From contig JABCZC010000016.1 of NCBI GenBank assembly GCA_013289875.1, forward strand, positions 1 to 64,000: a DNA stretch of 64,000 nucleotides, read 5' to 3'. This DNA is from Acidobacteriota bacterium (GTDB taxonomy: Bacteria; Acidobacteriota; Terriglobia; Terriglobales; Acidobacteriaceae). A program made the translations under genes and the position numbers. Below, piece by piece: positions 39,152-60,898 of the stretch. How positions within the stretch are numbered: position 1 is the stretch's first letter; the number at the start of each line of letters is the position of its first letter. The notes under the pieces were generated by a model. It was given only the letters and a program-made list of their open reading frames with translations, was not told where the DNA came from and did no database searches.

Positions 39152-40774
39152 CTATCGCGCGACCCGCACCCGCAGCACGGTGGACTTGTCCGGCAGCGAC
39201 ACGTGACGTTCATCTCCGTTGAGGCGGCGGGACGGTATCCATTGCTCGCCTTGAAAAGTGCCCTCCTCAATGGAGATGAGCTGTGCGTCGCGCAGTGGTC
39301 CATCTGTCTCGCGGAACGTCACATCGAACCCAGTGCCCATGATGACGAAATCGTCCGGCGCGAGTTCGATGATCATGCCGCAGGCTCTACCTTTTACCGG
39401 GTCGAAGGTAGCGGTGAAATCGATGTTCGCGGCCAGCCGCTCGCCGACCCGGATCGACTCTTTCCAGTCTTCTCCATTTGCAAGTCCCTGCAGGATAGGG
39501 TGAAGCTTGCCCGTGTATTGGTAGTGAACGATCAGCGGCAGCAGAGGACGCAGCACGCGATAAGTATCCTCAAAGCCGGCGCCGATCGCAGCACCGGTCG
39601 GACTCCTTTGGACATCGTCAATCCCGAAAGGGCTGAAGCCGATCCCGTTGAAGTCGCCGAACGTGGTGTAGGCAAAGCCCACATAGTAAGGATTGAAATT
39701 CGTCTCCGGAACGAAGAGTGGGTTATCCGGCCTGGTGTACTGCGCGGCGACATCGTAGAACTTTGGATAGTAGATATCCGGCGCCAGGATGTCGATGGCT
39801 GGCGCGGCCGCTTTCCAGATGTCGAAGACATTCACCGTTGCGCCACCGCTCGGCCATCGGCCTGCGCGCTCAACGCCCTCGATCAGCCAGACATTCACAT
39901 ACATGGGCAGCGGGTATTCATGCTTGCCGGCAGCTGCAACCGTATTGACGTAATTCGAGACCAGCCATGCGCTGAATGATTCCGGCGCCAGTTCCCCAAA
40001 GACCTGCTTCCAATTGCCCGACTTCGGCGATTTGTCCCATACCCTGATCATCGGGGCAGAGAGCTGGCGGCCATGGCTCTCCAGAAAGCTGAGCAACTCC
40101 TTCGGCACTCGCGCATCGAAGAGGCGATTAGCGGCTTCGGAATAGTCCCGGTCAGTTCCGAGTAGTCCCGGCTCGTTCTCCACCTGAACCATAAGAACGG
40201 TGCGATCTGCTTCATCGACACTCTTCACGTGCTGCAGCAGCGCAGCGAAGGCTCGCGCGTCGGCGTCCATGGCGGCGCGACAAAGCGGAGAGATAATCTC
40301 CGTCTCCTCGCCTCGCGAGCCCAGCACGCGCGTATATTTCTGCTTGTCGCGCTTCACCCACTCGGGCACGTAGTGGCTCTCGCCGTTTTTCCAGGTGCCG
40401 AACCACAGCAGCACGAGGTGCAGGTCGCGCTTCCGCGCTGCCTGGATCGCGCGATCCACCAGGCGAAAATCGAATTGCCCAGGCTTCGGCTCAATGGCTT
40501 CCCAGTAAATGGGCACCTCCGCCGTATTGGCGTGCCAGCCGGCAAGTACATCCAGCGCTTTATCGAGGTCATCCGCATTGGAAGTCGTTGAATTGTGAAT
40601 CTGGCCACTCAGCATCAGGTAAGGGCTGCCATCGACCATCAAGCGAAAAGTCTCGCCCGTCTTCTCGATGCTGGGAATAGGTTTGGAGACGGATTGCGCG
40701 ATGCCCGCGGCCGGCATCACGAGAAAAACGAGCAGGTTGCAAAGGCGAGCGGCTGTACGGAGGGACGCGTTCAT
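39152..40774 (-). CDS. Secreted GH35/GH42-like glycosidase with DUF5597 C-terminus
   Basis: 540 aa with a signal peptide (cleavage near AGIAQS). A TIM-barrel beta-galactosidase-like domain follows: FRLMVDGSPYLMLSGQIHNS near the start, WHANTAEVPIYWEAIEPKPGQFDF, the acid/base motif VQVENEPG (Glu201) and the probable nucleophile in FVPETNF (Glu357). After DIYYPKFYDVA the region FNGIGFSPFGIDD and the tail resemble DUF5597, the module attached to this glycosidase group in Acidobacteria and Bacteroidota. It should act on beta-galactosides or related glycans outside the cytoplasm. A perfect palindrome (40863-40883) in its promoter region, shared with two other promoters, ties it to the TetR locus. 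Confidence 0.9.
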   Translation of the reverse strand: MNASLRTAARLCNLLVFLVMPAAGIAQSVSKPIPSIEKTGETFRLMVDGSPYLMLSGQIHNSTTSNADDLDKALDVLAGWHANTAEVPIYWEAIEPKPGQFDFRLVDRAIQAARKRDLHLVLLWFGTWKNGESHYVPEWVKRDKQKYTRVLGSRGEETEIISPLCRAAMDADARAFAALLQHVKSVDEADRTVLMVQVENEPGLLGTDRDYSEAANRLFDARVPKELLSFLESHGRQLSAPMIRVWDKSPKSGNWKQVFGELAPESFSAWLVSNYVNTVAAAGKHEYPLPMYVNVWLIEGVERAGRWPSGGATVNVFDIWKAAAPAIDILAPDIYYPKFYDVAAQYTRPDNPLFVPETNFNPYYVGFAYTTFGDFNGIGFSPFGIDDVQRSPTGAAIGAGFEDTYRVLRPLLPLIVHYQYTGKLHPILQGLANGEDWKESIRVGERLAANIDFTATFDPVKGRACGMIIELAPDDFVIMGTGFDVTFRETDGPLRDAQLISIEEGTFQGEQWIPSRRLNGDERHVSLPDKSTVLRVRVAR

Positions 40775-40862
40775 ATGATGTCACCGACGGTAATTTTGGG
40801 AGAGAATCGCCACATCTGTGGCTCTCACGAATTTGCAGTTCTCTTTGCCCCGGTTCTACAAT

Positions 40863-40883
40863 AACATGAGCAAAGCTCATGTT
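40863..40883. promoter_or_regulatory. Predicted TetR operator, copy 1 (glycosidase/MFS divergent region)
   Basis: AACATGAGC-AAA-GCTCATGTT is a perfect 9-bp inverted repeat. On the minus strand it is followed directly by TATTGT, a possible -10 for the glycosidase gene. It is 80 bp from the MFS start on the other side. Two near-copies lie before the FGGY kinase and the TonB receptor. Confidence 0.75.
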
Positions 40884-40962
40884 GCGCCACGCGTGATTTT
40901 CAGGCCCACTTTGAGTTGATACCTGACAGGTACGCGCCAATGCTCGTCGAACGGATCGCATC

Positions 40963-42135
40963 GTGCTGAGAAATATCTTGCCGCATAAGCGGGACAGGAT
41001 GATTCTGTTTCCTGCAGCCGGGTCGCAGCTCATCGTTACTACAGCCCTCTTCCTTATGCCTACGCTGATCGATACCCTCCAGGTCGCTGGCATATTTTCC
41101 GCTCGGGGCGCTGGACTGCTCCTGAGCATGGAATTGGCCGTATCGGCGCTGACCACACTCGGCCTTTCGGCATGGTTTCGCACGGAACACCCGCGCGCCT
41201 GGGCGCTATCGGGAGGTTTGCTCACAATTGGCGGCACCGCGCTCACCCTGCTCGCGCCATCGCCTTCGCTGTTCTTTGTATCCCGCCTCATCGCAGGCAT
41301 TGGAGCAGGCATAGTGGCCGCCAATGCAACCAGCGTGCTGTCACGCGGAATCGACCGCGAGAAGATCATCGCTATCCTGACGATGATCTCGATCGTCAAT
41401 GCCGCGCTTTGGCTTGTCGTCATGCCTTACAGCGTCGATCGTTTCGGATACCGTGGCGCATATGCCTGTATTCTGCTTATCTGTCTCGCCGGGACATGCC
41501 TGCTGGCACGTCTGCCCTCATCCCCCGCGCGGCAGCAAGTTAGCAGGCAATCATCGCGGTCGCCTCTTTCGTCGGCCGCCGCGCTGGTCGTGCTCGCGAT
41601 CTTCCTCACACAACTGGGTCAGGGAGCATTCTGGAGCCTCGAAGATTCCTTCGGCAGGCGTGCCGGTTTCAGCAGTCACGGAATCGGGGTCCTGCTTTCG
41701 GCTGCCACGCTCCTGCTGTTACTCGGCGCGATGGGAGCGGCGTGGGCGGGCGATCGTTTCGGCCGATTTCCTTCCATGCAGTCGCTCATTCTGGTCAATG
41801 CCGTGTCGATCGTCTTAATAAGCACTGTGGCGGTTCATTGGGTCTTCATTGCGGCGAATGTTCTGCAAGCGGTCACTAATCTCTCCTCTCTCATTTATCA
41901 ACTCGGACTATCGGCGAGCCTGGACCACACCGGACGGCTGGTTGCGGCAGCTACAGGTCTCGTAACCCTCGGCAACGGACTCGGTCCGAGCCTGTCGACC
42001 AGCCTGAGCGCGGCCTTTGGTGCGTCATCGGTTGGAATCGTCGTCCTCACATTCAACATTTTGGCGTTGATCGCATATAGCGCGATCAGATTTCGTTACG
42101 CTGGAGAGTCGCGCGTTTCGGCTTACCTGACGTGA
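40963..42135 (+). CDS. MFS transporter
   Basis: 390 aa with about twelve hydrophobic segments (LFPAAGSQLIVTTALFLMPTLID, GAGLLLSMELAVSALTTLGL, SGGLLTIGGTALTLLA, FFVSRLIAGIGAGIVAANATSVL, and others), the layout of a major facilitator permease. The loop RLIAGIGAGIV in the second half of the N-terminal bundle fits the family. It uses GTG 40963 as the first possible start; ATG 40999, just before the first span, is an alternative with a GGGACAGG signal. The substrate is unknown; its position between an operator-linked glycosidase and an aldehyde dehydrogenase (55 nt downstream) suggests uptake of a sugar or sugar-derived acid in this regulon. Confidence 0.85.
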   Translation: MLRNILPHKRDRMILFPAAGSQLIVTTALFLMPTLIDTLQVAGIFSARGAGLLLSMELAVSALTTLGLSAWFRTEHPRAWALSGGLLTIGGTALTLLAPSPSLFFVSRLIAGIGAGIVAANATSVLSRGIDREKIIAILTMISIVNAALWLVVMPYSVDRFGYRGAYACILLICLAGTCLLARLPSSPARQQVSRQSSRSPLSSAAALVVLAIFLTQLGQGAFWSLEDSFGRRAGFSSHGIGVLLSAATLLLLLGAMGAAWAGDRFGRFPSMQSLILVNAVSIVLISTVAVHWVFIAANVLQAVTNLSSLIYQLGLSASLDHTGRLVAAATGLVTLGNGLGPSLSTSLSAAFGASSVGIVVLTFNILALIAYSAIRFRYAGESRVSAYLT

Positions 42136-42190
42136 CCGTTCTCTTTCGCCTGCGTGCGAACATCCAAAAGCGGAGAGGCGCTCGAACGCA

Positions 42191-43597
42191 ATGAATCCGA
42201 TGACGATCAAAACAGAAACAGCCGCCATCACTCCGGAGGCCCGGCTTGAAAAATTGCGGAAAGCCGTCGACGAAGGCGCGCATCGCACGCTCTCCTGGCG
42301 GCTGGCTCAGCTCGACGGAGTGTTGCGTTTCGTCTCCGATCACGAAGATGCGATGCTGGCAGCGCTCAAAGCCGATCTCGGCCGCTGCGCTACTGAGGCG
42401 CGGGTTGCAGACACTCTAATGGTGCGTTCTGAGGTACGGCTGATACGGCGCAATCTGCGGCGCTGGCTGCAACCCCGCCGTGTCCATACTCCGATTGCTG
42501 CGCAGCCCGGAAAAAGCTGGGTACAGCAGGAGCCGTTCGGCCTAGCGCTGATTCTTGGGACCTGGAATTATCCTTTTCAGCAAATTCTCATACCGCTTGC
42601 CGGCGCGCTTGCGGCCGGAAACGCCGCGGTCGTGAAATTGTCTGAGGTCGCGCCGCACTCCGCTTCGCTGATGGCCAGATATCTGGAGCATTATGTCGAT
42701 CCGACTTCGGTTATCGTGTTCACCGGAGGTCCGGAAACCGCATCGCGGCTCCTTGGATGCCGATTCGACAAGATCTTCTATACCGGCTCCAGCCGTGTGG
42801 GCCGGATCGTAATGAAGGCGGCGGCTGAGAACTTGACGCCGGTGACGCTCGAGCTCGGCGGGAAGAATCCCGCAATCGTCGCATCGGATGCACCACTTGA
42901 AGTAACCGCCCGCCGCATTGTCTGGGGCCGCTTTATGAATGCCGGCCAGATTTGCGTAGCCCCGGATTATGTCCTCGTCCCGGAGCACATGCGACTCGCG
43001 TTGATCGACTCCTTACGCCGGGCAATTCTGCGATTTTATGGACCCGATCCGCATCGCAGCGAGTCCTACGGGCGCATCGTAAACGAGCAGCATTTTTCAA
43101 GGCTCCTTGCGCTCATGCGGGACGGCAGGGTTGCGATCGGAGGCAACACAGATGCAACGGACCGGTACATTGCGCCAACCGTGCTCACCGATTTGCCGGC
43201 TGGCGCAGCTGTCCTGCAGGAAGAAATCTTCGGTCCGATTTTGCCGGTTGTTGGGTACCAGACAATTGAAGAAGCCCTGGCATTCATCAGGGCGAGGCCC
43301 AAACCTCTGGCGCTTTATCTCTTTACGAAAAATCGCTCGCTGCAAAGACGATCAATTCGCGACATAAGCTCCGGCAGCGTCGTAATAAATGACGTAATAG
43401 TCAATCAGATCGTGCCCGGCCTGCCGTTCGGCGGAGTCGGCAATAGCGGGATGGGGGCCTTCCACGGCCGTTACACCTTCGATGCGTTTTCCCATTCCAA
43501 AGCGGTAGTGCACCGTGAATTATGGGGCGATCTCGACGTGCGCTATCCGCCGTTCAGCAACAGGAAGGATCGGCTTCTGCAGTGGCTCCTCTCCTAG
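42191..43597 (+). CDS. Aldehyde dehydrogenase
   Basis: 468 aa, NAD(P)-dependent aldehyde dehydrogenase of the shorter, class 3-like type. The coenzyme segment ILGTWNYPFQQILIPLAGALAAGNAAVVKLSE, the general base in LELGGKNP (Glu221) and the nucleophile in NAGQICVAPDY (Cys255) are present, with EEIFGPILPV and GGVGNSGMGAFHG near the end. It is 55 nt downstream of the MFS gene, probably cotranscribed. In the regulon it could oxidise an aldehyde released by the class II aldolase (lactaldehyde or glycolaldehyde-like); the substrate is inferred from context only. Its stop codon overlaps that of the convergent tetR gene (CTAG). Confidence 0.93.
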   Translation: MNPMTIKTETAAITPEARLEKLRKAVDEGAHRTLSWRLAQLDGVLRFVSDHEDAMLAALKADLGRCATEARVADTLMVRSEVRLIRRNLRRWLQPRRVHTPIAAQPGKSWVQQEPFGLALILGTWNYPFQQILIPLAGALAAGNAAVVKLSEVAPHSASLMARYLEHYVDPTSVIVFTGGPETASRLLGCRFDKIFYTGSSRVGRIVMKAAAENLTPVTLELGGKNPAIVASDAPLEVTARRIVWGRFMNAGQICVAPDYVLVPEHMRLALIDSLRRAILRFYGPDPHRSESYGRIVNEQHFSRLLALMRDGRVAIGGNTDATDRYIAPTVLTDLPAGAAVLQEEIFGPILPVVGYQTIEEALAFIRARPKPLALYLFTKNRSLQRRSIRDISSGSVVINDVIVNQIVPGLPFGGVGNSGMGAFHGRYTFDAFSHSKAVVHRELWGDLDVRYPPFSNRKDRLLQWLLS

Positions 43598-44328
43598 CGT
43601 TTGCTCCGGAGAGTTGTCTGAGTAGGCGGCGTCTTTTTCCTCGCAGAAGACGAGGCGGCGCGTCTGCCTTTTTCCATCGTCGCCGGCTCAAGAAGCAGAA
43701 AGAGAGCTGATTTCAACGAGAGTAAGACGCGAGCACGGTGTGGTTCCGGCAGAGTCAGAGCAAGACGAGTGGTAGCGCTGGCCGCTTCGATAGCAATCAG
43801 GACGCGGTCATAAACAATCCCGGGATCGATCCCGGGATGCATCTCCTGCAGCGCATCGGCAATTACCCGCGCATTCTGAAGCGTGTCTTCCACATTGAGC
43901 GCGCGCAGTTCCATCGATGCTGTCACGCAACTCCATATCTCGATAAAAGCAGGATTGGATGACTGCAGCTCTGCCATCTTGTCGATGATGATGTCATTAA
44001 GATGTTGCGAGTCATTCCGGCCATTTCTCAGCGCGTCGCGAATCCCCGTCGCCAGCGTCTCCGCAATGGTCGATGTATAACGGGTCCACATCTCCCGCAC
44101 AATGGCCAGCTTCATCGGGAAGTATTGATACACCGTCGCGATAGGCATCCTGGCCTCTCGCGCAATCTCACGCATGGAGACGTTTTCATATCCACGCGCG
44201 GCAAAGAGGCTGAGTGCGGTTTTGAGCACGGCTTCAAAGCGAGCCTGACTGCGTTCCTGTCGAGGTACCCTCTTTATGAGAGTCCTGTTCTCCACCTCAA
44301 GCATCGTTGTCCCCCACCTGTCTTTCAT
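43594..44328 (-). CDS. TetR-family transcriptional regulator, predicted regulator of the locus
   Basis: 244 aa. The N-terminal helix-turn-helix is RFEAVLKTALSLFAARGYENVSMREIAREARMPIATVYQYFPMKLAI, a typical TetR DNA-binding domain, followed by a variable helical ligand domain and a basic tail (EKGRRAASSSARKKTPPTQT). It is divergent from the FGGY kinase and convergent with the aldehyde dehydrogenase. Three copies of a 9-3-9 palindrome surround it, and TetR dimers bind palindromes of this size, so I predict that it represses these promoters until a pathway metabolite binds. The first Met (44328) and the ninth residue Met are alternative starts. Confidence 0.92.
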   Translation of the reverse strand: MKDRWGTTMLEVENRTLIKRVPRQERSQARFEAVLKTALSLFAARGYENVSMREIAREARMPIATVYQYFPMKLAIVREMWTRYTSTIAETLATGIRDALRNGRNDSQHLNDIIIDKMAELQSSNPAFIEIWSCVTASMELRALNVEDTLQNARVIADALQEMHPGIDPGIVYDRVLIAIEAASATTRLALTLPEPHRARVLLSLKSALFLLLEPATMEKGRRAASSSARKKTPPTQTTLRSKR

Positions 44329-44370
44329 CTGTTCACAGCTATGAGGTTAGTGCAATTGGACCTTAAACCT

Positions 44371-44398
44371 GTGTATTGTTCCGATACTGACCATACAC
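44371..44398. promoter_or_regulatory. Imperfect inverted repeat upstream of tetR
   Basis: GTGTATTGTTC and GACCATACAC form an imperfect inverted repeat (GTGTAT arms perfect) about 45 bp before the tetR start, where its promoter would lie. It differs from the AACATGAGC palindrome. It could be an autoregulatory site of lower similarity or the site of another regulator. Confidence 0.3.
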
Positions 44399-44519
44399 TA
44401 TCTTGTTTTGAGAAAAAGAGAGGCCGATCGAACCGGAAATGGCATTTAGACGTCGCTTTCTTGAGCATAGGCCGATTCAGGGCCTGTTCAACTACGTTCA
44501 AAAGGCAATCATCTCCGGT

Positions 44520-44549
44520 TTGACAGAACATGACTAATGCTCATATTAT
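44520..44549 (+). promoter_or_regulatory. FGGY-kinase promoter with operator copy 2 between -35 and -10
   Basis: TTGACA (44520-44525), an 18-bp spacer and TATTAT (44544-44549) make a strong promoter. The palindrome copy AACATGACT-AAT-GCTCATATT (44527-44547; 15 of 18 arm positions match the perfect copy) fills the spacer, the classic position for repression by a TetR protein. It lies 89 nt before the kinase start. Confidence 0.75.
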
Positions 44550-44637
44550 CAGAGGACTAATAGACAGCGGGCAGCGCAAGCATCAGGGCCATCCACCTCA
44601 CCGGGAGAGATGAGCGCACAAGGCAGGAAAGGCCATA

Positions 44638-46236
44638 ATGGCTACACGTCACAACCAATTTGTATTGGCCGTAGACTTGGGAACCTCCGGCTGCAAGTGC
44701 GCCCTCGTGGGCTTCGACGAGATCGTTCATAAGTGGGCGTTCTCTCCCGTTCCGCTTCACATCGTGGACACCGTAGGCGCCGAACAGGATCCTGAGGATT
44801 GGTGGAATGCTTTTCTTGCCGCGGCTCGGGAACTGATCGCGACACTGGGCGACGACAATGGAGAGATTGCCGCCATTTGCTGCTCCTGCCAGGGCGAGTG
44901 CACGGTTCCTGTCGATCGAACCGGGCGGCCGCTTCATCGGGCGATGTCGTGGATCGACATGCGCGGCGCGGAGGCCATTCGCCGTAGATCGAAAGGCCGG
45001 GCATTCTCAGTGGCCGGTTACGATCCCTTCAAATTGGCGCATTGGATCCGGCGCGCTGGCGGGGCGCCGGCTCTTTCCGGTAAAGATCCTGCCGGGCACA
45101 TGGCTTTCATCCAGGAAGCATGGCCCGAGATCTACGACAAAACCTATAAATTCCTGAACGCTCTCGACTACATGAACTTGCGCCTTACAGGCCGGTTTGT
45201 TGCGACGGTGGACTCCATTTTGACGTCATGGGTGACGGACAATCGCGATCCAAACAATATCCGGTATGACAAGAAGCTGATCGCCCAATCCGGCATAGCC
45301 CCGGAAAAATTGCCGGACATTGTGCAATGTACTGACGTGCTCGGCCCCTTATGGTCTTCGGCCGCCCGGGAATTAGGGCTCCCGGCGAATACGCCTGTGG
45401 TTGCAGGCGCCGTGGACAATTCGGCAGCGGCTATTGGATCTGGAGCAGTTCGCGACGGAGAAGCTCACCTCTATATCGGCACATCCTCTTGGATTGGCGC
45501 TCACGTTCCTCGCAAAAAGACAGATATATCCGCGCAAATCGCAGCTGTGCCGTGCGCTATCAAGGGGCGCTATCTGGCGGTTGCCCTGCAGTCGTCGGCC
45601 GGCTCGAATCTTCGATTTCTCTCCGACAAAATCCTTTTCCATCAGGACGAGCTGGCCGCGCCACGGCCTGCAGACATTGATCCCGCTCTGGATAGAATCG
45701 CCGCGTCTGTTCCTGCCGGCGCCCGGGGCTTGCTTTACATGCCCTGGCTTTGCGGTGAACGCAGCCCGGTCGACGAGCCCAGTTTGCGGGCCGGCCTGTT
45801 GAACATGTCCCTGCAGCACACGCGCGAAGACATCATCCGCGCATTCCTGGAAGGTGTGGCGCTGAACACCCGCCGGATGGTTGGCCCAGTCGGCCGCTTT
45901 CTTGGCAAGCCCCTGCATCAGATCACGCTGGTTGGTGGAGGAGCCTCTTCCGATGTGTGGTGCCAGATATTCGCCGACGTGCTCAATCTTCCGGTTCAGC
46001 AAATGGAAGCACCGATTCAGGCGAATGCCGTAGGAGCCGCGCTGATCGGCGGCGTAGGAATCGGCAACCTGTCTTATGACGACATCCCCGGTCTGACACG
46101 CATTCGCCACACTTACCTGCCCGACCCCTCAAGGAAAAGCGTTTACGACGAGGCATTTGAGAATTTCATCTTTGCCTGGCGGCGCCTCGCGCCCTTGTAT
46201 CGCAGGCTAAACCCGATGAATGGAGCGGGCCTATGA
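44638..46236 (+). CDS. FGGY-family carbohydrate kinase
   Basis: 532 aa with the two-domain FGGY/actin-like fold. VLAVDLGTSGCKCALVGFD is the N-terminal phosphate-1 loop, SCQGECTVPVDRTGRPLHRAMSWIDMRG is the family motif region, VVAGAVDNSAAAIGSGAV and LVGGGASSDVWCQIFADVLN are the adenosine and phosphate motifs, and GVALNTRRM precedes the latter. FGGY kinases phosphorylate a pentulose, hexulose or polyol. The order kinase, class II aldolase and aldehyde dehydrogenase recalls L-fucose/L-rhamnose-type pathways, but the exact sugar is not readable. It starts an operon of at least four genes with an ATGA overlap to the next. Confidence 0.92.
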   Translation: MATRHNQFVLAVDLGTSGCKCALVGFDEIVHKWAFSPVPLHIVDTVGAEQDPEDWWNAFLAAARELIATLGDDNGEIAAICCSCQGECTVPVDRTGRPLHRAMSWIDMRGAEAIRRRSKGRAFSVAGYDPFKLAHWIRRAGGAPALSGKDPAGHMAFIQEAWPEIYDKTYKFLNALDYMNLRLTGRFVATVDSILTSWVTDNRDPNNIRYDKKLIAQSGIAPEKLPDIVQCTDVLGPLWSSAARELGLPANTPVVAGAVDNSAAAIGSGAVRDGEAHLYIGTSSWIGAHVPRKKTDISAQIAAVPCAIKGRYLAVALQSSAGSNLRFLSDKILFHQDELAAPRPADIDPALDRIAASVPAGARGLLYMPWLCGERSPVDEPSLRAGLLNMSLQHTREDIIRAFLEGVALNTRRMVGPVGRFLGKPLHQITLVGGGASSDVWCQIFADVLNLPVQQMEAPIQANAVGAALIGGVGIGNLSYDDIPGLTRIRHTYLPDPSRKSVYDEAFENFIFAWRRLAPLYRRLNPMNGAGL

Positions 46237-46895
46237 ACTTCGATCGGGTGCGCAGTGAAGTTGTCTCAACTTGTCTGTCTTTGGCCGACAAGGGATATCT
46301 TGCCGGAACCGGAGGGAACGTCGCCTGCCGTATTGACGACGAGCATTTCGCTGTCACTCCCTCGGCAACCGATTATTACGCGATGCGCCCGGAGGATATC
46401 TGCGTGCTTCGCCTCGACAACCTTGTGCAGGTCGCGGGAAATCATCGGCCTTCTGTCGAGCACCGTTTGCACGCCAATGTTCTGCGCCTTCGCCGCGACT
46501 GCGACGCCAGCATTCACACCCATCAGCCCATTGCCAGCGCTTATACCCTGCTCGGGCGCGAGCTTGAAATTCAAGATCCGCGTCACTGGGCCTTTCTCGG
46601 ATCAACCGCTGCCTTCGTTTCCTATGCGCCTTCGGGCACAACCTGGCTGGCGTCGAAACTGCGGAAGAAGATCCGGCCGGATATTAATGCCTATCTCCTA
46701 CAAAACCACGGTGTGGTTTGCTGCGGCCCGACACTGGACGAGACAGTGAAAATGGGCGAGGTCCTGGAGACGGCCTGCATCGCCTTCTTCCACGACGCGA
46801 TCAGCACTCATATCTCGGCGGGTTGTGAACCCGCGTCATCAAAGGTTCTCACACTACTACTTGCCGCTACCCCTGAAATGGAGCACGTTCAATGA
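46233..46895 (+). CDS. Class II aldolase / adducin-family protein (active-site residues kept)
   Basis: 220 aa, coupled to the kinase by ATGA overlap (46233-46236). It carries the class II aldolase signature: GTGGN (residues 25-29) for phosphate binding, a Glu in SVEHRLHANV, the metal-binding HTH (His95, His97) and a third ligand in NHG (His159). A zinc-dependent retro-aldol reaction on a phosphorylated sugar is expected, as in L-fuculose-1-phosphate, L-rhamnulose-1-phosphate or L-ribulose-5-phosphate family enzymes. The product of the kinase is the likely substrate. The start of the aminotransferase gene overlaps its stop by 4 nt. Confidence 0.92.
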   Translation: MNFDRVRSEVVSTCLSLADKGYLAGTGGNVACRIDDEHFAVTPSATDYYAMRPEDICVLRLDNLVQVAGNHRPSVEHRLHANVLRLRRDCDASIHTHQPIASAYTLLGRELEIQDPRHWAFLGSTAAFVSYAPSGTTWLASKLRKKIRPDINAYLLQNHGVVCCGPTLDETVKMGEVLETACIAFFHDAISTHISAGCEPASSKVLTLLLAATPEMEHVQ

Positions 46896-48376
46896 CTGTC
46901 GCTGCCGTCAACTCGCCACTCGTTAACGAGAGTGCTCCGGAGAACTCATACGGCATCTCCGAATGGCCGGACATGGACGACATCTATGAGCGCCTTGCCG
47001 CACTCATCCGGCAGCCAGTCCGTCCCATTCGCCGCGAAAACATGGAGACCGTGCTCAACTATTTCCACGAGAAATGCACGCGCTCGCAACGGCTTTCCGA
47101 ACAAGCGGCGCGATTCATTCCCGGCGGCGTCCAGCACAACCTGGCCTTTAACTATCCGTTCCCGTTGTCCATCACGGAAGCAAGCGGCGCCTATCTCACC
47201 GACGCAGACGGGAACCGCTACATCGACTTTCTTAAGGCCGGCGGCCCGATCCTGCTCGGTTCCAACGATGACACTGTTCGGCAGCAAGTGCACTCGCTGC
47301 TTGAGTCCTGCGGTCCGGTCACCGGCCTCCTGCATGAGTATGAAGTCAAACTCGCCGAACTGGTGTGCCAGTCCATGCCCGCGATTGAAATGTTCAGAAT
47401 GCTGGGCTCCGGAACCGAGGCCGTGATGGCGGCGCTCCGTTTGGCGCGCGCGTACACTGGCCGCAAATGGGTGATCAAGATCGGCGGAGCGTATCACGGC
47501 TGGAGTGACCAGATGGTCTACGGCATGCGGATTCCCGGCACCGGCCGACGAGAGGCCGTCGGTATACCCAAGGCGTCCACCGCCTATATTCAGGAGCGAT
47601 TCCCGAATGATCTCGATGCGCTCCGCCGAACCCTATGGCTCAACCGCCTGCGTGGCGGAACCGCCGCCATCATCGTCGAACCCCTCGGACCAGAGAGCGG
47701 CACGCGTCCTGTCCAGCGCGACTTCAATCGTGAACTTCAGGCTCTCTGCCGCGAATTTGGAGCCCTGCTTATCTTCGACGAAGTCGTCACTGGATTCCGC
47801 GTGGGCATGGGCGGAGCGCAAGGCTACTTCGGAGTAAAGCCCGACATCACCGTTCTGGGAAAATGCCTGACGGGTGGTTATCCCATGGCCGGCGGCATCG
47901 GTGGACGGCGCGATGTGATGATGCTGCTCGCCGGCGGCATCGGAACTACCTCAAAGCGCGCTTTTGTCGGAGGCACCCTGTCTGCCAATCCGCTCTCTTG
48001 CGCTGCAGGCTATTTCGCCATTCAGGAGATGCGGCGAATCGACGCCGCGGTGAAGGCCGGCCGCGCCGGAGACCGCCTGCGAAAAGGCCTGGATGAAATC
48101 ATCGATCGCCTTGGCTTGCCCTACGTTGCATATAACTTCGGTTCGATCGTTCATCTGCAGACCTCGGGAGTCATGCTCATGAGCATGCGCAATCCCCTCA
48201 AGGTGATGAAAGAGGCTGGCCCTCGCAAACACCTGATGGAAGAGATGGGGGCCGCGTTCAGTGCGCACGGAATCATAACTCTCGCTGGGAGCCGTATCTA
48301 CACTGGTCTCGCCGACACTGATGCAGTCGTTGACGATGCCCTCAACCGCTTCGAAGACGTATTGAAGCTCGTTTAA
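46892..48376 (+). CDS. Class III (glutamate-1-semialdehyde-like) PLP aminotransferase/aminomutase
   Basis: 494 aa; ATG 46892 overlaps the aldolase stop in ATGA. After an unusual ~45-residue N-terminal extension (MTVAAVNSPLVNESAPENSY...) come the fold-I motifs: FIPGGVQHNL and ADGNRYIDFL, GSGTEAVMAALRLARAYTG, AYHGWSDQM (PLP ring stacking His), IVEPLGPESGTRPV, LLIFDEVVTGFR (Asp for PLP N1), and the PLP lysine in LGKCLTGGYP (Lys324). It resembles GSAM/transaminase III members found in catabolic clusters rather than haem biosynthesis. In a kinase-aldolase operon it could transaminate or isomerise a sugar-derived aldehyde or ketone. The substrate is unknown. Confidence 0.9.
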   Translation: MTVAAVNSPLVNESAPENSYGISEWPDMDDIYERLAALIRQPVRPIRRENMETVLNYFHEKCTRSQRLSEQAARFIPGGVQHNLAFNYPFPLSITEASGAYLTDADGNRYIDFLKAGGPILLGSNDDTVRQQVHSLLESCGPVTGLLHEYEVKLAELVCQSMPAIEMFRMLGSGTEAVMAALRLARAYTGRKWVIKIGGAYHGWSDQMVYGMRIPGTGRREAVGIPKASTAYIQERFPNDLDALRRTLWLNRLRGGTAAIIVEPLGPESGTRPVQRDFNRELQALCREFGALLIFDEVVTGFRVGMGGAQGYFGVKPDITVLGKCLTGGYPMAGGIGGRRDVMMLLAGGIGTTSKRAFVGGTLSANPLSCAAGYFAIQEMRRIDAAVKAGRAGDRLRKGLDEIIDRLGLPYVAYNFGSIVHLQTSGVMLMSMRNPLKVMKEAGPRKHLMEEMGAAFSAHGIITLAGSRIYTGLADTDAVVDDALNRFEDVLKLV

Positions 48377-48391
48377 GGAGAGAGGGCGACA

Positions 48392-49051
48392 GTGCAGTGG
48401 ACACAACTTGAATCGCAATTGCTGGAGGGATGCCGCCGTCTTGCCAGGAAAGGCTTCCTGAGCACCCCTGCGGACAGCTTCTCGTTGCGAATCCCCGGAC
48501 ACATGGAAATGATCCTGGTAGCCGGCTCTGATGACTGGGAACGGATCACTTCCAGCGATCTCCGTGCACTCCCCTTTTCTGCACACGACGATTCGGGCAA
48601 GCTCCATGCGTGGATCTACCAGGACCGTGCCGACGTTGGCGCTGTGGCGCTTTCCAGCTCAGAAGGCACGCGTTTGCTTGCAAGCCACGGCGGCGCGTTG
48701 CCGCCCATATTTGATGAGCAAGTGAGGCATATCGGCCGGCCCAGCAAGCCATTGCGTGAGGAGCCAGACCGCGACGAAATCAGAAGAGCCTTCAGCTGGG
48801 GAACTAATGTCGCGCTGCTCGGAGATCGGTTGCTGTGCCTGGGGATGACCTGTGATCGTGTTCTCTTCAATACCGAACTCTTCGAGAAGTGCGCTCAGGC
48901 ATATGTGATCGCCAGAGCAAGCGGCAGCAGCATCACTTTCATTCCGTCGTGGGTTCAGATGATCGCCAATCATCGCCTGCTTAAAGACGAACGCCGCGCC
49001 GCTCTTAGTTACAGCAAAGGCCGTGTCCCTGAAGATCTCCACTCCTATTGA
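48392..49051 (+). CDS. Class II aldolase-like protein lacking the metal ligands
   Basis: 219 aa, starting GTG 48392 after GGAGAGAGGG, 15 nt after the aminotransferase, so in the same operon. The domain order matches class II aldolases (LARKGFLSTPADSFSLRI at the phosphate-loop position, HAWIYQDRADVGAVAL then the metal motif, GTNVALLGDRLLCLGMTCDRVLFNTELFEKCAQAYVIAR near the end). The metal-binding HTH is replaced by Ser88-Ser89-Ser90 and the NHG by Gly144-Asp145-Arg146, and the GTGGN loop is degenerate. A zinc-dependent aldol reaction is therefore unlikely. It may be a structural partner, a ligand-binding regulator or a pseudoenzyme arisen from its active paralogue upstream. Its intact frame and start argue that it is expressed. 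Confidence 0.8.
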   Translation: MQWTQLESQLLEGCRRLARKGFLSTPADSFSLRIPGHMEMILVAGSDDWERITSSDLRALPFSAHDDSGKLHAWIYQDRADVGAVALSSSEGTRLLASHGGALPPIFDEQVRHIGRPSKPLREEPDRDEIRRAFSWGTNVALLGDRLLCLGMTCDRVLFNTELFEKCAQAYVIARASGSSITFIPSWVQMIANHRLLKDERRAALSYSKGRVPEDLHSY

Positions 49052-49202
49052 CGCCAGTACGGCAATTGTCTTCGCCAACTGATTACCTGAGTCATGCTCA
49101 CCTCCAATGGCCGCTTTCCGGATACGCGAGCAGGCAAAATAGGCACCTGATTCAGATTGGCCTAGGAAATATTCAACAGGTGTCCTTTTTTTTGCTCTTG
49201 TC

Positions 49203-49223
49203 AACATGAGCATCGCTCATGTA
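49203..49223 (+). promoter_or_regulatory. Predicted TetR operator, copy 3 (TonB receptor)
   Basis: AACATGAGC-ATC-GCTCATGTA, 17 of 18 arm positions identical to the perfect copy, 66 bp before the receptor start. TTGTCA overlaps its left edge and TAATCT its right edge, so a weak promoter may straddle it as in the kinase copy. Confidence 0.75.
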
Positions 49224-49289: not shown

Positions 49290-52200
49290 ATGCGCTCTCT
49301 CGTTCGTTGTTGTGTCAGTTTTTCCTTATTCGCGTTTTTGAGCACGATCCCGCTCACGGCGCAATCCACACAATCCGCCATCCTTGGCACCGTCAAAGAC
49401 GCGAGCGGCGCCGTCATTCCCGCCGCGCGGGTTGTCATCACTGATCTGGATAAGGGAAATCTGGCGAGATATGCCACCGATGCCGCCGGCAATTTCCAGG
49501 CTCAGGACCTGACGCCGGGCAAGTACCGCCTCCAGGTATCGAAGGCTGGCTTTCAAAGCAGGCTGATCGACGAGGTCGGCCTGAGCGCCCGCCAACAGCT
49601 GCATCTCGATGTTGTGCTTTCCGTGGGCGCTACCCAGCAGGAAATCACCGTCGACGCGAGCACTGCGGGCGCAATCGAGACGGAGACGCCATCTATCGCT
49701 TCGACATTGAATGAGCAGAATGTGCTGAGCCTGCCTGCCAACTATCGCGCGAGCGGCAGCACAAGTCCTCTGAATCTCATCCAGGCGCTTCCTGGTGTGC
49801 AGCCCGACACCGGCCCCGGCACCACCACTCCTACCGCCAATGGAACCCCGACGATTAATTTTTCAGTGCAGGGCGGCGCACCATTCCAGACAGAAACTTC
49901 TGTCGATGGTATTTCCACCCAGAACGTCAGAAATAACACGCCGCTTTCCGACGCCTTTCCATCGGCTGAATCGATAGCCGAAATCCGTGTTGAAGGCGTC
50001 AGCAACAATGCCGAATTCGGGCAGGCTGGAGAGGTCACAACCGTGACCAAGAGCGGAACCAATCAACTGCACGGATCCCTTTTCTGGTACTTCCAGAATC
50101 GCGCCCTCGATGCCACAGCCTACGGTACACCTGTGAACGCTGCCGGAAACCCGGAACGGCCGGAGAAAATCGGCAATGACTTCGGACTCAGCGCTGGCGG
50201 TCCTCTCATCATTCCTCATCTCTACAACGGAACCAATAAGACCTTCTTCTTCGGAGCCTACGAAGGGTTTCGCTTTCCCCGGCAAACCACTATTCAGGAC
50301 CTGGTGCCCACCCAGCTGATGCAGCAGGGGAATTTCAGTCAGGAAGTGCCTGCCGGTCAACTGTTTGATCCCTTCACAGGAGGGTTTTACCCGAATAACA
50401 CCATCAACCCGGTCAACCCTTCTGGCCAACCCTTTCTGGGGTTTTTCCCTCTGCCGAATGTCGGCAATTATCAGACCATTGCTGAAGCGGAAGCTGGCGC
50501 CGGTTACAACTACGCTGCCAATCGCGACGCCGGCTATAACTCGAACCAGTTTGACGCCCGCGTCGACCATCGCTTCAATCAGAAATTGCAGGGCTTCGCA
50601 AGATACACCTTCAAGGACCTGACTCTACTCACTCCTCAGGACCTGAACGTCCAGTCGATTACCAACTTTGATAATTACCGCATCCTTGCGAGTTCGCTGG
50701 TCTATGCGTTTACTCCCTCTCTGCTGAATGAATTTCGTTTCGGCTTTACCTCCGAACAAAACGGCATTCGCAACGCCCTCAACGGAGGGCCCTATACGAA
50801 TGCCGCGGGATTTGAGCCGATCGGTCCCACCTATCCTGTGAATGGCGTGACGGCGCTTTACTTCCCCAACCTCACCTCGCTTGAAGCCGGCAATATCAAT
50901 CAGACATCGCAGAGCCATTTGTTCCAGTACACCGACAATCTCACCTGGAGCAAGGGCGTGCACACCATAAAGTTCGGCGGTGACATCCGCAGCCTCCAGT
51001 CTCTGACCACGCTGGGATCTTACGGACTGAACAATGTTTCGGTCTTCGCATTCACCGGGCAAATCACCGGCAATCAGTTCGCGGACTATCTCGCCGGCGT
51101 TCCAGTCGAGACGCAGTATTACACCCTGACCCCTCAAAACGACGGAAAGTCGGTGTATTACGGCTTCTTTGCGCAGGATGAGTGGAAGGCCATGCCGAAT
51201 CTGACCATTTCCTACGGCCTGCGCTACGAATACCACCCCGCATATCACGATCAGGATGGGGCAATCGGTAACTTCGACCCCAGCACTCCGGGGACCGGCT
51301 CGGTCATTTATCCCAACGGCCATCAGAATCTGCTCGATTCATCGTTTCTGGCCAATTTCGACGCGTGCGGATACGGCCCGTCTTCCACTCCCTACGCGAG
51401 CTGCACTCCGGTGCTCTCCAACAGCCAGGCTCATCTGCCGAGCAGCCTGCGCAAGTCGCAAAAGGATCGTATCCTGCCTCGCTTCGGATTCTCCTGGCGC
51501 CCCTACAACAATGACAAAACCGCTGTGCGCGGGGGCTTTGGCGTTTACAACACGACATTGTTGGGCAGCATCTTCTTTGCTCTAACCGACACGCTGCAGG
51601 CGGCGAGTCTTACCTATATAAACTCAGCAACTCCTACCGGTCTTGCTTACGCGTGGCCGCAGACAAGCCCTGGATCCGGATCCAACACGCCCGTTTACGG
51701 TACTGCCGCCTTCAACACCTCCAACCAGATCAATTGGAAAGACCCCTACTCCATGCAGTGGAATCTCTCCGTCGATCACGAATTTTCGGGAAACATTGGT
51801 GCGCGCATTACCTATATCGGCATGAAGACGGACCAACTCGTCTGGGGACCGAACCTCAACGATATGTCCTACTCGACCACCACGCCCGCCCAGTTGCGGC
51901 CTCTCACCGATCGCCCGTTCCCCAATTGGGGTACAGTGAACGCTCACAATCCTGGCGCCCAGGCAACCTATGACGCGCTGCAATTGGAAGCCAACCATCG
52001 CTTCCAGCATGGCTTCACCTTCGAATCCGCATACACGTGGGCCAAAAACCTCGCCGATAATCAGGGACCGCAGGCTACCGGCTTCGCCGGGGAAAACGGC
52101 GGCAATGTCGGACAGGTCTCTACCTATGCCTACAACCGTCAGCTTGATTACGGAAACGTCTATGGCACGCGTCGTCAACGCTGGATCAACACCGGTGTCT

Positions 52201-52808
52201 ACCAGCTTCCATTCGGGCAGGGGGGCAAGTTCGCCACGGACCTCAATCGTTTTGAGAACGCGCTCGTGAGCGGATGGCAATTGAGCAGTATCTTTCTCCT
52301 GCAGACCGGACCATATCTGAACGCATATATTCCCGGCAATGATGCCGACCCTTCCGGCACCGGCTCCGGAATTCTGTATGGGCGCGATCAGCATCCTGAC
52401 GTGATCGGCAAGATTGTTCCCGCCCATCGCGGCAGAAATGAATGGGTCAATCCTGCCGCCTTCGCGTGCCCCAGCAATTCTGGCTACACCGCTGCTTCGT
52501 ACGCGGGCAATCCCTGCAGCGTGGGCGTAACTTCAGCGCCAATCGGCCGCTTCGGCAGTGAAAGCGTGGGCGATATCGAGGGGCCGGGAACGGTGAACTG
52601 GTCGGCGGGACTCAGCAAGCAATTCGCAATTACAGACAACCTGCATTTGCGCACTGAAGCTACCTTCACCAACGTGCTGAATCACACAAATCTGAACGAT
52701 CCACTCCTGGACATCACGAATCCCAACTTTGGAAAAATCACGACCGCTCGCGGATCGGATTTTGGCGGCAATCGCACCGGCCAGCTCTCGCTGCGACTTG
52801 AGTTCTAA
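49290..52808 (+). CDS. Oar-like TonB-dependent receptor with carboxypeptidase-regulatory domain
   Basis: 1172 aa. A signal peptide (to LTAQS, residues 1-25) is followed by a carboxypeptidase-regulatory beta-sandwich (ILGTVKDASGAVIPAARVVI... GNFQAQDLTPGKYRLQV, residues ~27-115). The plug domain contains the TonB-plug-like LIQALPGVQPDTGP, ETSVDGISTQNVRNNTPL and GEVTTVTKSGTNQLHGSLFW segments. A large beta-barrel with outer-membrane strands follows and ends in GQLSLRLEF with a terminal Phe, as required for barrel assembly. Acidobacteria use such receptors for large substrates, probably glycans here. Operator copy 3 in its promoter links it to the TetR regulon. Confidence 0.93.
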   Translation: MRSLVRCCVSFSLFAFLSTIPLTAQSTQSAILGTVKDASGAVIPAARVVITDLDKGNLARYATDAAGNFQAQDLTPGKYRLQVSKAGFQSRLIDEVGLSARQQLHLDVVLSVGATQQEITVDASTAGAIETETPSIASTLNEQNVLSLPANYRASGSTSPLNLIQALPGVQPDTGPGTTTPTANGTPTINFSVQGGAPFQTETSVDGISTQNVRNNTPLSDAFPSAESIAEIRVEGVSNNAEFGQAGEVTTVTKSGTNQLHGSLFWYFQNRALDATAYGTPVNAAGNPERPEKIGNDFGLSAGGPLIIPHLYNGTNKTFFFGAYEGFRFPRQTTIQDLVPTQLMQQGNFSQEVPAGQLFDPFTGGFYPNNTINPVNPSGQPFLGFFPLPNVGNYQTIAEAEAGAGYNYAANRDAGYNSNQFDARVDHRFNQKLQGFARYTFKDLTLLTPQDLNVQSITNFDNYRILASSLVYAFTPSLLNEFRFGFTSEQNGIRNALNGGPYTNAAGFEPIGPTYPVNGVTALYFPNLTSLEAGNINQTSQSHLFQYTDNLTWSKGVHTIKFGGDIRSLQSLTTLGSYGLNNVSVFAFTGQITGNQFADYLAGVPVETQYYTLTPQNDGKSVYYGFFAQDEWKAMPNLTISYGLRYEYHPAYHDQDGAIGNFDPSTPGTGSVIYPNGHQNLLDSSFLANFDACGYGPSSTPYASCTPVLSNSQAHLPSSLRKSQKDRILPRFGFSWRPYNNDKTAVRGGFGVYNTTLLGSIFFALTDTLQAASLTYINSATPTGLAYAWPQTSPGSGSNTPVYGTAAFNTSNQINWKDPYSMQWNLSVDHEFSGNIGARITYIGMKTDQLVWGPNLNDMSYSTTTPAQLRPLTDRPFPNWGTVNAHNPGAQATYDALQLEANHRFQHGFTFESAYTWAKNLADNQGPQATGFAGENGGNVGQVSTYAYNRQLDYGNVYGTRRQRWINTGVYQLPFGQGGKFATDLNRFENALVSGWQLSSIFLLQTGPYLNAYIPGNDADPSGTGSGILYGRDQHPDVIGKIVPAHRGRNEWVNPAAFACPSNSGYTAASYAGNPCSVGVTSAPIGRFGSESVGDIEGPGTVNWSAGLSKQFAITDNLHLRTEATFTNVLNHTNLNDPLLDITNPNFGKITTARGSDFGGNRTGQLSLRLEF

Positions 52809-60581: not shown

Positions 60582-60898
60582 GTTCTCCCCGCTTCCAGCG
60601 ACCGCCGCAGCCATTCCGAGTCATCAGAAACAGCCGAAGCGGGATGCTTCTGCCTTTGGCGAAGTAATTTCATCACGGCGATGACTAACCCGCAATCGTG
60701 CAATTGGCTTAGTTCTGTTTGCAGAAGGTGCAGTTTGCGGATAGATGTGTCACCGAAGTTCAGCGCTCCAGATTTTCGGGCGTTGCCTCAATGTCGTGGC
60801 CGCCGCACCGATGGACGGGCAATTTCCTGATGTGCTATGCCTTTGCCCGGTAGTGGATCTTAGCCGGATATCTTAATGTTTTATGAAATCGCTCGCTT
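60582..60898. other. Spacer between the two Ig-repeat genes, nothing recognised
   Basis: 317 bp. I see no gene, RNA or clear promoter. The GATAACGCC-like context near 60870 is not a convincing terminator. Confidence 0.35.

Follow-up and report, generated by a model that had tools for sequence, protein, structure and literature searches.

Palindromic sites and genes of the locus

The stretch of DNA analysed here, in the following called the window, comprises 64,000 nucleotides of an Acidobacteriota bacterium (assembly GCA_013289875.1, contig JABCZC010000016.1, positions 1 to 64,000). It contains a locus in which a 21-bp palindrome occurs three times around a gene encoding a TetR-family regulator, beside genes for an FGGY-family kinase, two aldolase-like proteins, a class III aminotransferase (AMT), an aldehyde dehydrogenase (ALDH), a transporter of the major facilitator superfamily (MFS) and a TonB-dependent receptor. 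The palindrome is regarded as the putative operator of this TetR protein, judging from the co-occurrence of regulator and site and from the conservation of the helix-turn-helix domain. The sites, their uniqueness, the association with TetR across phyla, the promoter architecture and the gene neighbourhoods were obtained by computation, and the genes were typed by Pfam and NCBIfam scans and by PDB comparisons. The following features were found:

39152–40774, minus strand: beta-galactosidase-like protein (GH35/DUF5597), signal-like sequence at the N-terminus seen by eye (NCBIfam GH35_fam 583 bits, cut-off 500)
40863–40883, no strand assigned: putative operator 1, no mismatch to AACATGAGC-N3-GCTCATGTT (pattern search)
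40963–42135, plus strand: MFS transporter (Pfam MFS_1 62.8 bits)
42191–43597, plus strand: aldehyde dehydrogenase of the class-3/fatty-aldehyde-dehydrogenase type (Pfam Aldedh; PDB matches)
43594–44328, minus strand: TetR-family regulator, proposed binder of operators 1–3 (Pfam TetR_N, PF00440, 51.9 bits, cut-off 24; TetR_C_22 42.4 bits)
44520–44549, plus strand: FGGY operon promoter, TTGACA - 18 - TATTAT (promoter scan, 11 of 12 consensus positions)
44527–44547, no strand assigned: putative operator 2, AACATGACT-AAT-GCTCATATT, three mismatches, in the FGGY promoter spacer
44638–46236, plus strand: FGGY-family kinase (Pfam FGGY_N 113 bits, FGGY_C 110 bits)
46233–46895, plus strand: class II aldolase, FucA-like, ALD1 (Pfam PF00596 136.5 bits)
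46892–48376, plus strand: class III aminotransferase AMT, GSAM-like (Pfam/NCBIfam scans, PDB comparison, alignment)
48392–49051, plus strand: Aldolase_II-like protein ALD2 (Pfam 30.5 bits)
49203–49223, no strand assigned: putative operator 3, one mismatch, 66 bp upstream of the ATG of the TonB-dependent receptor gene
49290–52808, plus strand: TonB-dependent (Oar-type) outer-membrane receptor (Pfam OMP_b-brl_4 629 bits, CarboxypepD_reg 66 bits)

An earlier note on this DNA had described the three copies, and a pattern search of the window located all of them at the same coordinates and with the same mismatch counts. The note had also placed a TetR gene inside the locus and each copy before a separate transcription unit, which agrees with the map: operator 1 lies in the 188-bp region between the divergent GH35 gene (start 40774) and MFS gene (GTG start 40963), operator 2 precedes the FGGY operon and operator 3 the TonB receptor gene. 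A possible -10 element (TACAAT, 40857–40862) immediately precedes operator 1; it was seen by eye, and the promoter scan gave no score. The genes for the FGGY kinase, ALD1, AMT and ALD2 likely form a single operon, because they overlap or nearly abut.

The number of sites in the window, three at up to three mismatches, compares with a mean of 0.01 and a maximum of 1 when the window was shuffled 100 times. A search of the own genome (G000; 5,050,189 bases in 184 contigs, 90% complete), which the earlier note had named as a check, yielded no match beyond these three at up to three mismatches, and the reversed control pattern gave no match under the same settings. In a base-composition model with an assumed G+C content of 58%, about 1.2 matches at up to three mismatches and 0.07 at up to two are expected per 5.05 Mb; two of the three window sites have at most one mismatch. 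Three matches within 8.4 kb, each upstream of a different transcription unit, are far beyond chance. An origin of the palindrome from a repeat or mobile element was ruled out, because the genome has just three copies at up to three mismatches, all within the locus.

Promoter of the FGGY operon

Copy 2 lies, as had been noted, between TTGACA (44520–44525) and TATTAT (44544–44549), which are separated by 18 bases. The spacer between -35 and -10 is a classic repressor position, and TetR most likely acts as a repressor. The same arrangement was seen by eye in five of five acidobacterial loci (the window, L063, L064, L087 and L165), the promoters of which have TTGACA in all five cases, TATTAT in four and TATTCT in one (L063), with spacers of 17–18 bases. 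The left arm of operator 2 deviates in that TGACT replaces TGAGC, and this variant occurs in the same promoter in all five loci (window 44527–44547, L063:7612, L064:7625, L087:7553 and L165:13664, the last with five mismatches). Copy 2 is thus a conserved, promoter-specific variant and more than a mere decay product; one half-site may therefore be tuned to this promoter.

The promoter also bears on the reading of the palindrome as an RNA element, i.e. a hairpin, attenuator or terminator instead of a DNA operator. Copy 3 does score as terminator-like, but such matches are at chance level (10 versus a mean of 8.2). Furthermore, copy 2 would not be transcribed from the FGGY promoter, because it lies between -35 and -10, and the hairpin is not conserved though the sequence is, since the four scored FGGY copies pair at only 6–7 of 9 arm positions. 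An RNA element is therefore scarcely credible.

Association of the palindrome with TetR in other genomes

With AMT as the query, 80 loci were drawn from public genomes, namely the best 80 of 578 confirmed relatives. An orthologue of the window TetR was present in nine of these 80 loci (phmmer at least 186 bits, next best 41), three of them acidobacterial (Acidobacterium sp. S8, L063; Granulicella sp. L46, L064; L087) and six from Pseudomonas (L083, L089, L093, L098, L100, L101). The palindrome, at up to four mismatches, was found upstream of the FGGY gene in exactly these nine loci and before FGGY in none of the remaining 71, 59 of which have FGGY within the stretch. Among the 71, L097 (at 3000) and L108 (at 12436, within an MFS frame) each show a single match with four mismatches, in neither case before FGGY, and unrelated TetR types lie near many of these operons. 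Between the window protein and the six Pseudomonas proteins, the helix-turn-helix domain is 63–74% identical and the remainder 33–38%; in three other TetR proteins of the same alignment, the identity of this domain is 24–37%.

When 298 Pseudomonas genomes were searched with a Pseudomonas TetR, ten matches at E ≤ 1e-25 were obtained. Nine of them are 55–100% identical to the query, and all nine have the palindrome (1–3 mismatches) adjoining tetR and FGGY; the tenth, a paralogue with 31% identity, has neither palindrome nor FGGY. Since two of the nine were already in the set of six, the Pseudomonas genomes amount to 13 in total, which are not 13 independent events, because the strains are related.

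A search with the palindrome alone, at up to two mismatches, gave matches in 29 of 399 genomes of the class, the own genome included. In G363, a genome of the same family (locus L058), the site lies between the orthologous receptor gene and the orthologous tetR. This locus was found without protein sequences, and its surroundings (19.9 kb) contain the full set of genes for GH35, the TonB-dependent receptor, TetR, ALDH, MFS, FGGY, ALD1, AMT and ALD2. The near-matches in 12 of the 28 other genomes were rejected as operators: they reflect coding conservation and lie within a reading frame, taken here to be that of IscS, in which the motif GESLLMGI occurs. In the remaining 15 of the 28, the 3 kb examined contained neither a related TetR scoring above 29 bits nor any further strong match to genes of the locus. 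A second match in G111 is left out of this tally. The site next to orthologous genes, a check that the earlier note had proposed, was thus found in nine of the 80 loci, with all nine Pseudomonas orthologues and in G363.

The whole genomes of seven relatives were searched at up to three mismatches; the FGGY site was recovered in six, and that of G780 has four mismatches. One extra match with three mismatches occurs in each of four of the seven, none of them with related genes within 3 kb. It speaks against giving weight to such matches that the reversed control pattern matched three times in G778 and once in G779, as expected of background; a lone match with three mismatches therefore means little, and the case for a putative operator lies in position and conservation. 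Close to its start, the orthologous receptor gene has a site in L063 (four mismatches), L064 (five), L087 (four) and L165 (two), the one in L087 within the longest reading frame, the start of which is uncertain. Weaker sites (four and five mismatches) lie upstream of the MFS gene in L063 and L064, and in L165 the FGGY operator is in a region common to the divergent MFS gene. The receptor and MFS sites with four or five mismatches would not stand alone.

A palindromic site also overlaps a promoter near tetR itself (pattern search and promoter scan); an alignment with orthologues suggests the second Met, at about 44304, as the true start of TetR. In L083 (7622–7642) and several other Pseudomonas loci, the putative operator extends over the earliest potential tetR start codons. 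This overlap suggests direct autoregulation of tetR in these strains.

Taken together, it is very probable that one TetR protein governs the whole regulon. According to a competing explanation, a regulator encoded elsewhere binds the palindrome. The half-sites are also compatible with T-N11-A, a LysR-like spacing pattern, but the site tracks this TetR over two phyla, and the examined loci with other TetR types lack it, so that such a regulator is very improbable.

The window TetR remains below the cut-offs of the NCBIfam equivalog models PsrA, FadR, FasR, KstR, BetI and RefZ (best RefZ, 38.6 bits versus 180). The lipid regulators FasR, PsrA, FadR and KstR are among its NCBIfam matches via the helix-turn-helix region, and KstR is also among its PDB matches; however, the scores of these four are only 32–38 bits at cut-offs of 200–330. 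The best PDB match is the uncharacterised TetR protein 3mvp.

The locus is patchy in the phylum. Outside the own genome, the best TetR match among 61 genomes is 26% identical over residues 18–235 (G001), and of 396 genomes of the phylum, only the own one yielded the FGGY kinase at E ≤ 1e-60. This patchy occurrence suggests horizontal transfer.

Enzymes and substrate of the regulated genes

In PDB comparisons, the ALDH is closest to class-3 and fatty aldehyde dehydrogenases (dimeric NADP-preferring 3sza, 423 bits; fatty aldehyde dehydrogenase 4qgk, 421; class 3 1ad3, 416; MdlD 5ucd, 287). The FGGY kinase remains under the NCBIfam equivalog cut-offs of the matching models. ALD1 was aligned with FucA chains, and its residues E76, H95, H97 and H159, presumably those of the metal site, are conserved at 97% or more in 77 sequences. 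K324 of AMT is, by the family pattern, presumably the lysine that binds pyridoxal phosphate. In an alignment of 45 sequences, ALD2 was without the HTH and NHG metal-site motifs, and no PDB relative was found at E < 0.1; by its sequence it is probably not an aldolase by itself and is perhaps a partner subunit. The motif-less ALD2 is retained beside its presumably active paralogue ALD1. The GH35 protein has its best PDB match in 8faa (362 bits), and its best PDB relatives are named beta-galactosidases; in the window, an operator adjoins its gene, and in L063, L064 and L165 the gene is found downstream of the one for the receptor.

Regarding the substrate, the gene context in Pseudomonas is informative. 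The names SphB, SphC, SphD and SphR were assigned to homologues by domain content and order, without comparison to the P. aeruginosa sequences. In the 13 Pseudomonas clusters of the TetR type, DUF1302 and DUF1329 proteins are encoded beside tetR in all 13 (Pfam), an SphR-like AraC regulator (Arabinose_bd domain) in 11, SphB/C/D-like proteins in nine and a neutral ceramidase in six. Whole-genome searches of strains of this type detected ceramidase in four of 11 (L093 and L101, both with ceramidase in the cluster, were outside the search) and SphC in eight of 12 (L101, with SphC in the cluster, was outside the search). Both genes are single-copy and lie within the TetR cluster, about 4 kb (ceramidase) and 7 kb (SphC) from tetR. 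Furthermore, an SphC-like gene no more than 10 kb away from AMT is present in seven loci that have other regulators (L066, L074, L078, L090, L092, L096, L107); overall, SphC occurs in 12 of the 80 loci, including L083, L089, L093, L100 and L101. Sphingosine is described as inducing sphBCD and cerN of P. aeruginosa via SphR (PMC3900636, PMC11893366).

A polysaccharide is probably not the substrate, because the Pseudomonas operon adjoins SphR-like, sphBCD-like and neutral ceramidase genes, and a substrate of the sphingoid-base type is likely. The earlier note had proposed that one regulator controls uptake, depolymerisation and catabolism of one substrate class. Uptake, by the TonB receptor and the MFS transporter, and catabolism, by the FGGY operon, are well supported as parts of this proposal. 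Depolymerisation is not established: GH35 adjoins one operator, but the Pseudomonas gene context indicates sphingolipid-derived bases.

The same TetR regulon could also serve a sugar or glycan, from which GH35 would free a sugar that is imported by the TonB receptor and MFS transporter, phosphorylated as a ketose by the FGGY kinase and cleaved by the aldolase to dihydroxyacetone phosphate (DHAP) and a short aldehyde, which ALDH would oxidise. The signal-like sequence of GH35 fits this explanation, the relatives of FGGY and FucA-like proteins are mainly sugar enzymes, and many sugars enter cells via TonB receptors and MFS transporters. However, no sugar isomerase is among the typed operon genes, a class III aminotransferase accompanies the operon in the 80 loci (though these were selected by that gene), the ALDH is of the fatty-aldehyde type, and sph and ceramidase genes are neighbours in Pseudomonas. 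A sugar or glycan as the substrate is therefore unlikely.

Several observations weigh against sphingoid bases as the substrate. Seven of the 13 Pseudomonas genomes have no ceramidase and four no SphC; L166 and L167, both of the TetR type, show no sph genes within 19.9 kb. In Albitalea (L066, G782; another TetR type), ceramidase and operon are on different contigs. Neither the PF04734 ceramidase nor, at E ≤ 1e-40, SphC was found in any of five acidobacteria (G000, which is 90% complete, G778, G779, G780 and G363). The sphingolipid link therefore rests on the Pseudomonas neighbours, and the acidobacteria would need free or glycosylated bases or another amidase. The structural relatives of GH35 include Bgl35A, which we take to be a xyloglucan galactosidase, the best NCBIfam model for ALDH is MdlD, a benzaldehyde dehydrogenase (369 bits, cut-off 550), ALD1 fails the FucA equivalog cut-offs (87–88 bits versus 250–264), and AMT matches GSAM better (230 bits) than an aminopentol aminotransferase (101 bits). 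In addition, sphinganine and sphingosine have no 4-hydroxyl group, so that an aldolase cut between C3 and C4 is not feasible for them.

Proposed pathway

The following scheme covers TetR binding, repression, the ligand, the substrate and each enzyme reaction, all of which we infer from these data. Ligand-free TetR would sit on three promoters, those of the FGGY operon and the TonB receptor gene and the divergent promoter of MFS and GH35, and a ligand derived from the substrate would free them. The regulated genes would then serve to import a long-chain sphingoid base of the 4-hydroxy (phytosphingosine) type and to break it down. AMT would convert the C2 amino group to a ketone, yielding a ketose-like head on an alkyl chain, which the FGGY kinase would phosphorylate at C1. 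The FucA-like aldolase would cleave the product between C3 and C4 to DHAP and a fatty aldehyde, which would be pentadecanal in the case of C18 phytosphingosine, and the class-3-type ALDH would oxidise this aldehyde to the fatty acid. In the known sphingosine-1-phosphate lyase route, the fatty aldehyde is one carbon longer. By our own Cahn-Ingold-Prelog reasoning, C2-deaminated (2S,3S,4R)-phytosphingosine is (3R,4R), which matches the stereochemistry of FucA; fuculose-1-phosphate aldolase is described as setting 3R,4R (PMC11274987).

The complete explanation, in which a TetR regulon is combined with catabolism of a phytosphingosine-type base, is considered reasonably probable. The exact C3–C4 aldolase route is put forward tentatively, with the odds slightly against it.

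In Chloroflexi and Actinobacteria, AMT and FGGY genes are likewise neighbours, with no sph genes seen in the stretches examined, and the operon is found on two plasmids. One is a conjugative plasmid of Burkholderia ambifaria (L168, NZ_CP152372.1), on which an operon for FGGY, aldolase and aminotransferase, with SDR and ALDH, is located amid IS5 and Tn3 transposases. The other is a rumen plasmid of Butyrivibrio fibrisolvens (L169, NZ_CP146964.1) with FGGY, a class II aldolase, an aminotransferase (57% identical) and ALDH nearby. A substrate range wider than sphingoid bases is therefore possible. The same regulon might accordingly act on another amino-polyol or amino sugar, for example a 2-amino-2-deoxy alditol, from which AMT would produce the ketose. 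Such a substrate matches the order of aminotransferase, kinase and aldolase with no need for a lipid, and no SphB/C/D/R-like genes were seen in the stretches examined of the Chloroflexi, the Actinobacteria and the Butyrivibrio plasmid. It leaves unexplained, however, the ceramidase, SphR-like and sphBCD-like neighbours and the fatty-aldehyde-type ALDH, and is regarded as quite improbable.

Comparison with known systems

The SphR regulon of P. aeruginosa (sphA, sphBCD, cerN) resembles the system proposed here in that SphR, SphB, SphC, SphD and neutral ceramidase domains flank the orthologous TetR/FGGY operon in some Pseudomonas clusters. P. aeruginosa SphR is described as an AraC-type, sphingosine-binding activator (PMC3900636), whereas the window regulator belongs to the TetR family and has a different putative operator.

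The aminopentol aminotransferase FumI of Sphingopyxis sp. MTA144, which functions in fumonisin degradation, is also a class III aminotransferase, and the PDB entry 6hbs, which we take to be this Sphingopyxis enzyme, matches AMT (101 bits, E = 5.5e-28). The Sphingopyxis enzyme is described as deaminating hydrolysed fumonisin B1, an analogue of sphinganine, at C2, and no FGGY or aldolase step is mentioned in the relevant parts of that description (PMC2933618). AMT itself is nearer to GSAM, and its C2 deamination is a prediction from the sequence relation.

L-Fucose catabolism proceeds via the FGGY kinase FucK, the aldolase FucA and oxidation of lactaldehyde. The order of the chemistry is the same, from a ketose via its 1-phosphate to DHAP and an aldehyde and finally an acid, and ALD1 retains the metal-site residues of FucA. 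In contrast, the window operon has no isomerase, the aminotransferase would provide the ketone, a long-chain aldehyde is expected, and ALD1 scores under the FucA cut-offs.

As stated in the relevant passage of a 2025 paper on sphBC, the product made from sphingosine is unknown (PMC11893366). Among the titles and abstract openings listed in searches of the openly licensed PMC literature, no route for sphingoid bases with FGGY, class II aldolase and class III aminotransferase was found. The locus supplies a complete gene set with predicted regulator, operator and inducer class for the degradation of sphingoid bases. If the proposal is true, sugar-catabolic enzymes were recruited to a membrane lipid, and the TetR system could serve as a reporter for sphingoid bases. 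Phytosphingosine is abundant in plant and fungal sphingolipids, and the pathway would suggest a way for soil acidobacteria to exploit them. That several phyla degrade phytosphingosine-type bases in the fashion of sugars, by an aminotransferase, an FGGY kinase and a fuculose-phosphate-type aldolase, with a dedicated TetR switch common to Acidobacteria and Pseudomonas, is conceivable, with the balance slightly against it.

Further observations

Mpo1-like proteins (PF06127, DUF962) were considered as support for phytosphingosine and dropped; they occur in nine of 15 genomes outside the examined operon loci and in none of the five acidobacteria. A short DUF962 gene is located near the operon on the Burkholderia plasmid; in L090, a weakly related one (36 bits) lies at a distance of about 3 kb from the operon. 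In Albitalea, genes for ceramidase and an Mpo1-like protein lie about 6 kb apart on contig C22 of G782 (about 293–301 kb), distant from the operon. Chloroflexi ceramidases were not used either: the neighbour in L108 (37.8 bits, cut-off 32.1) has no relative in other loci, and the matches in three other Chloroflexi genomes could not be placed in operon loci.

At 55872–63046 of the window, two long minus-strand proteins with Ig-like/Big_2 repeats are encoded, which are apparently unrelated to the regulon.

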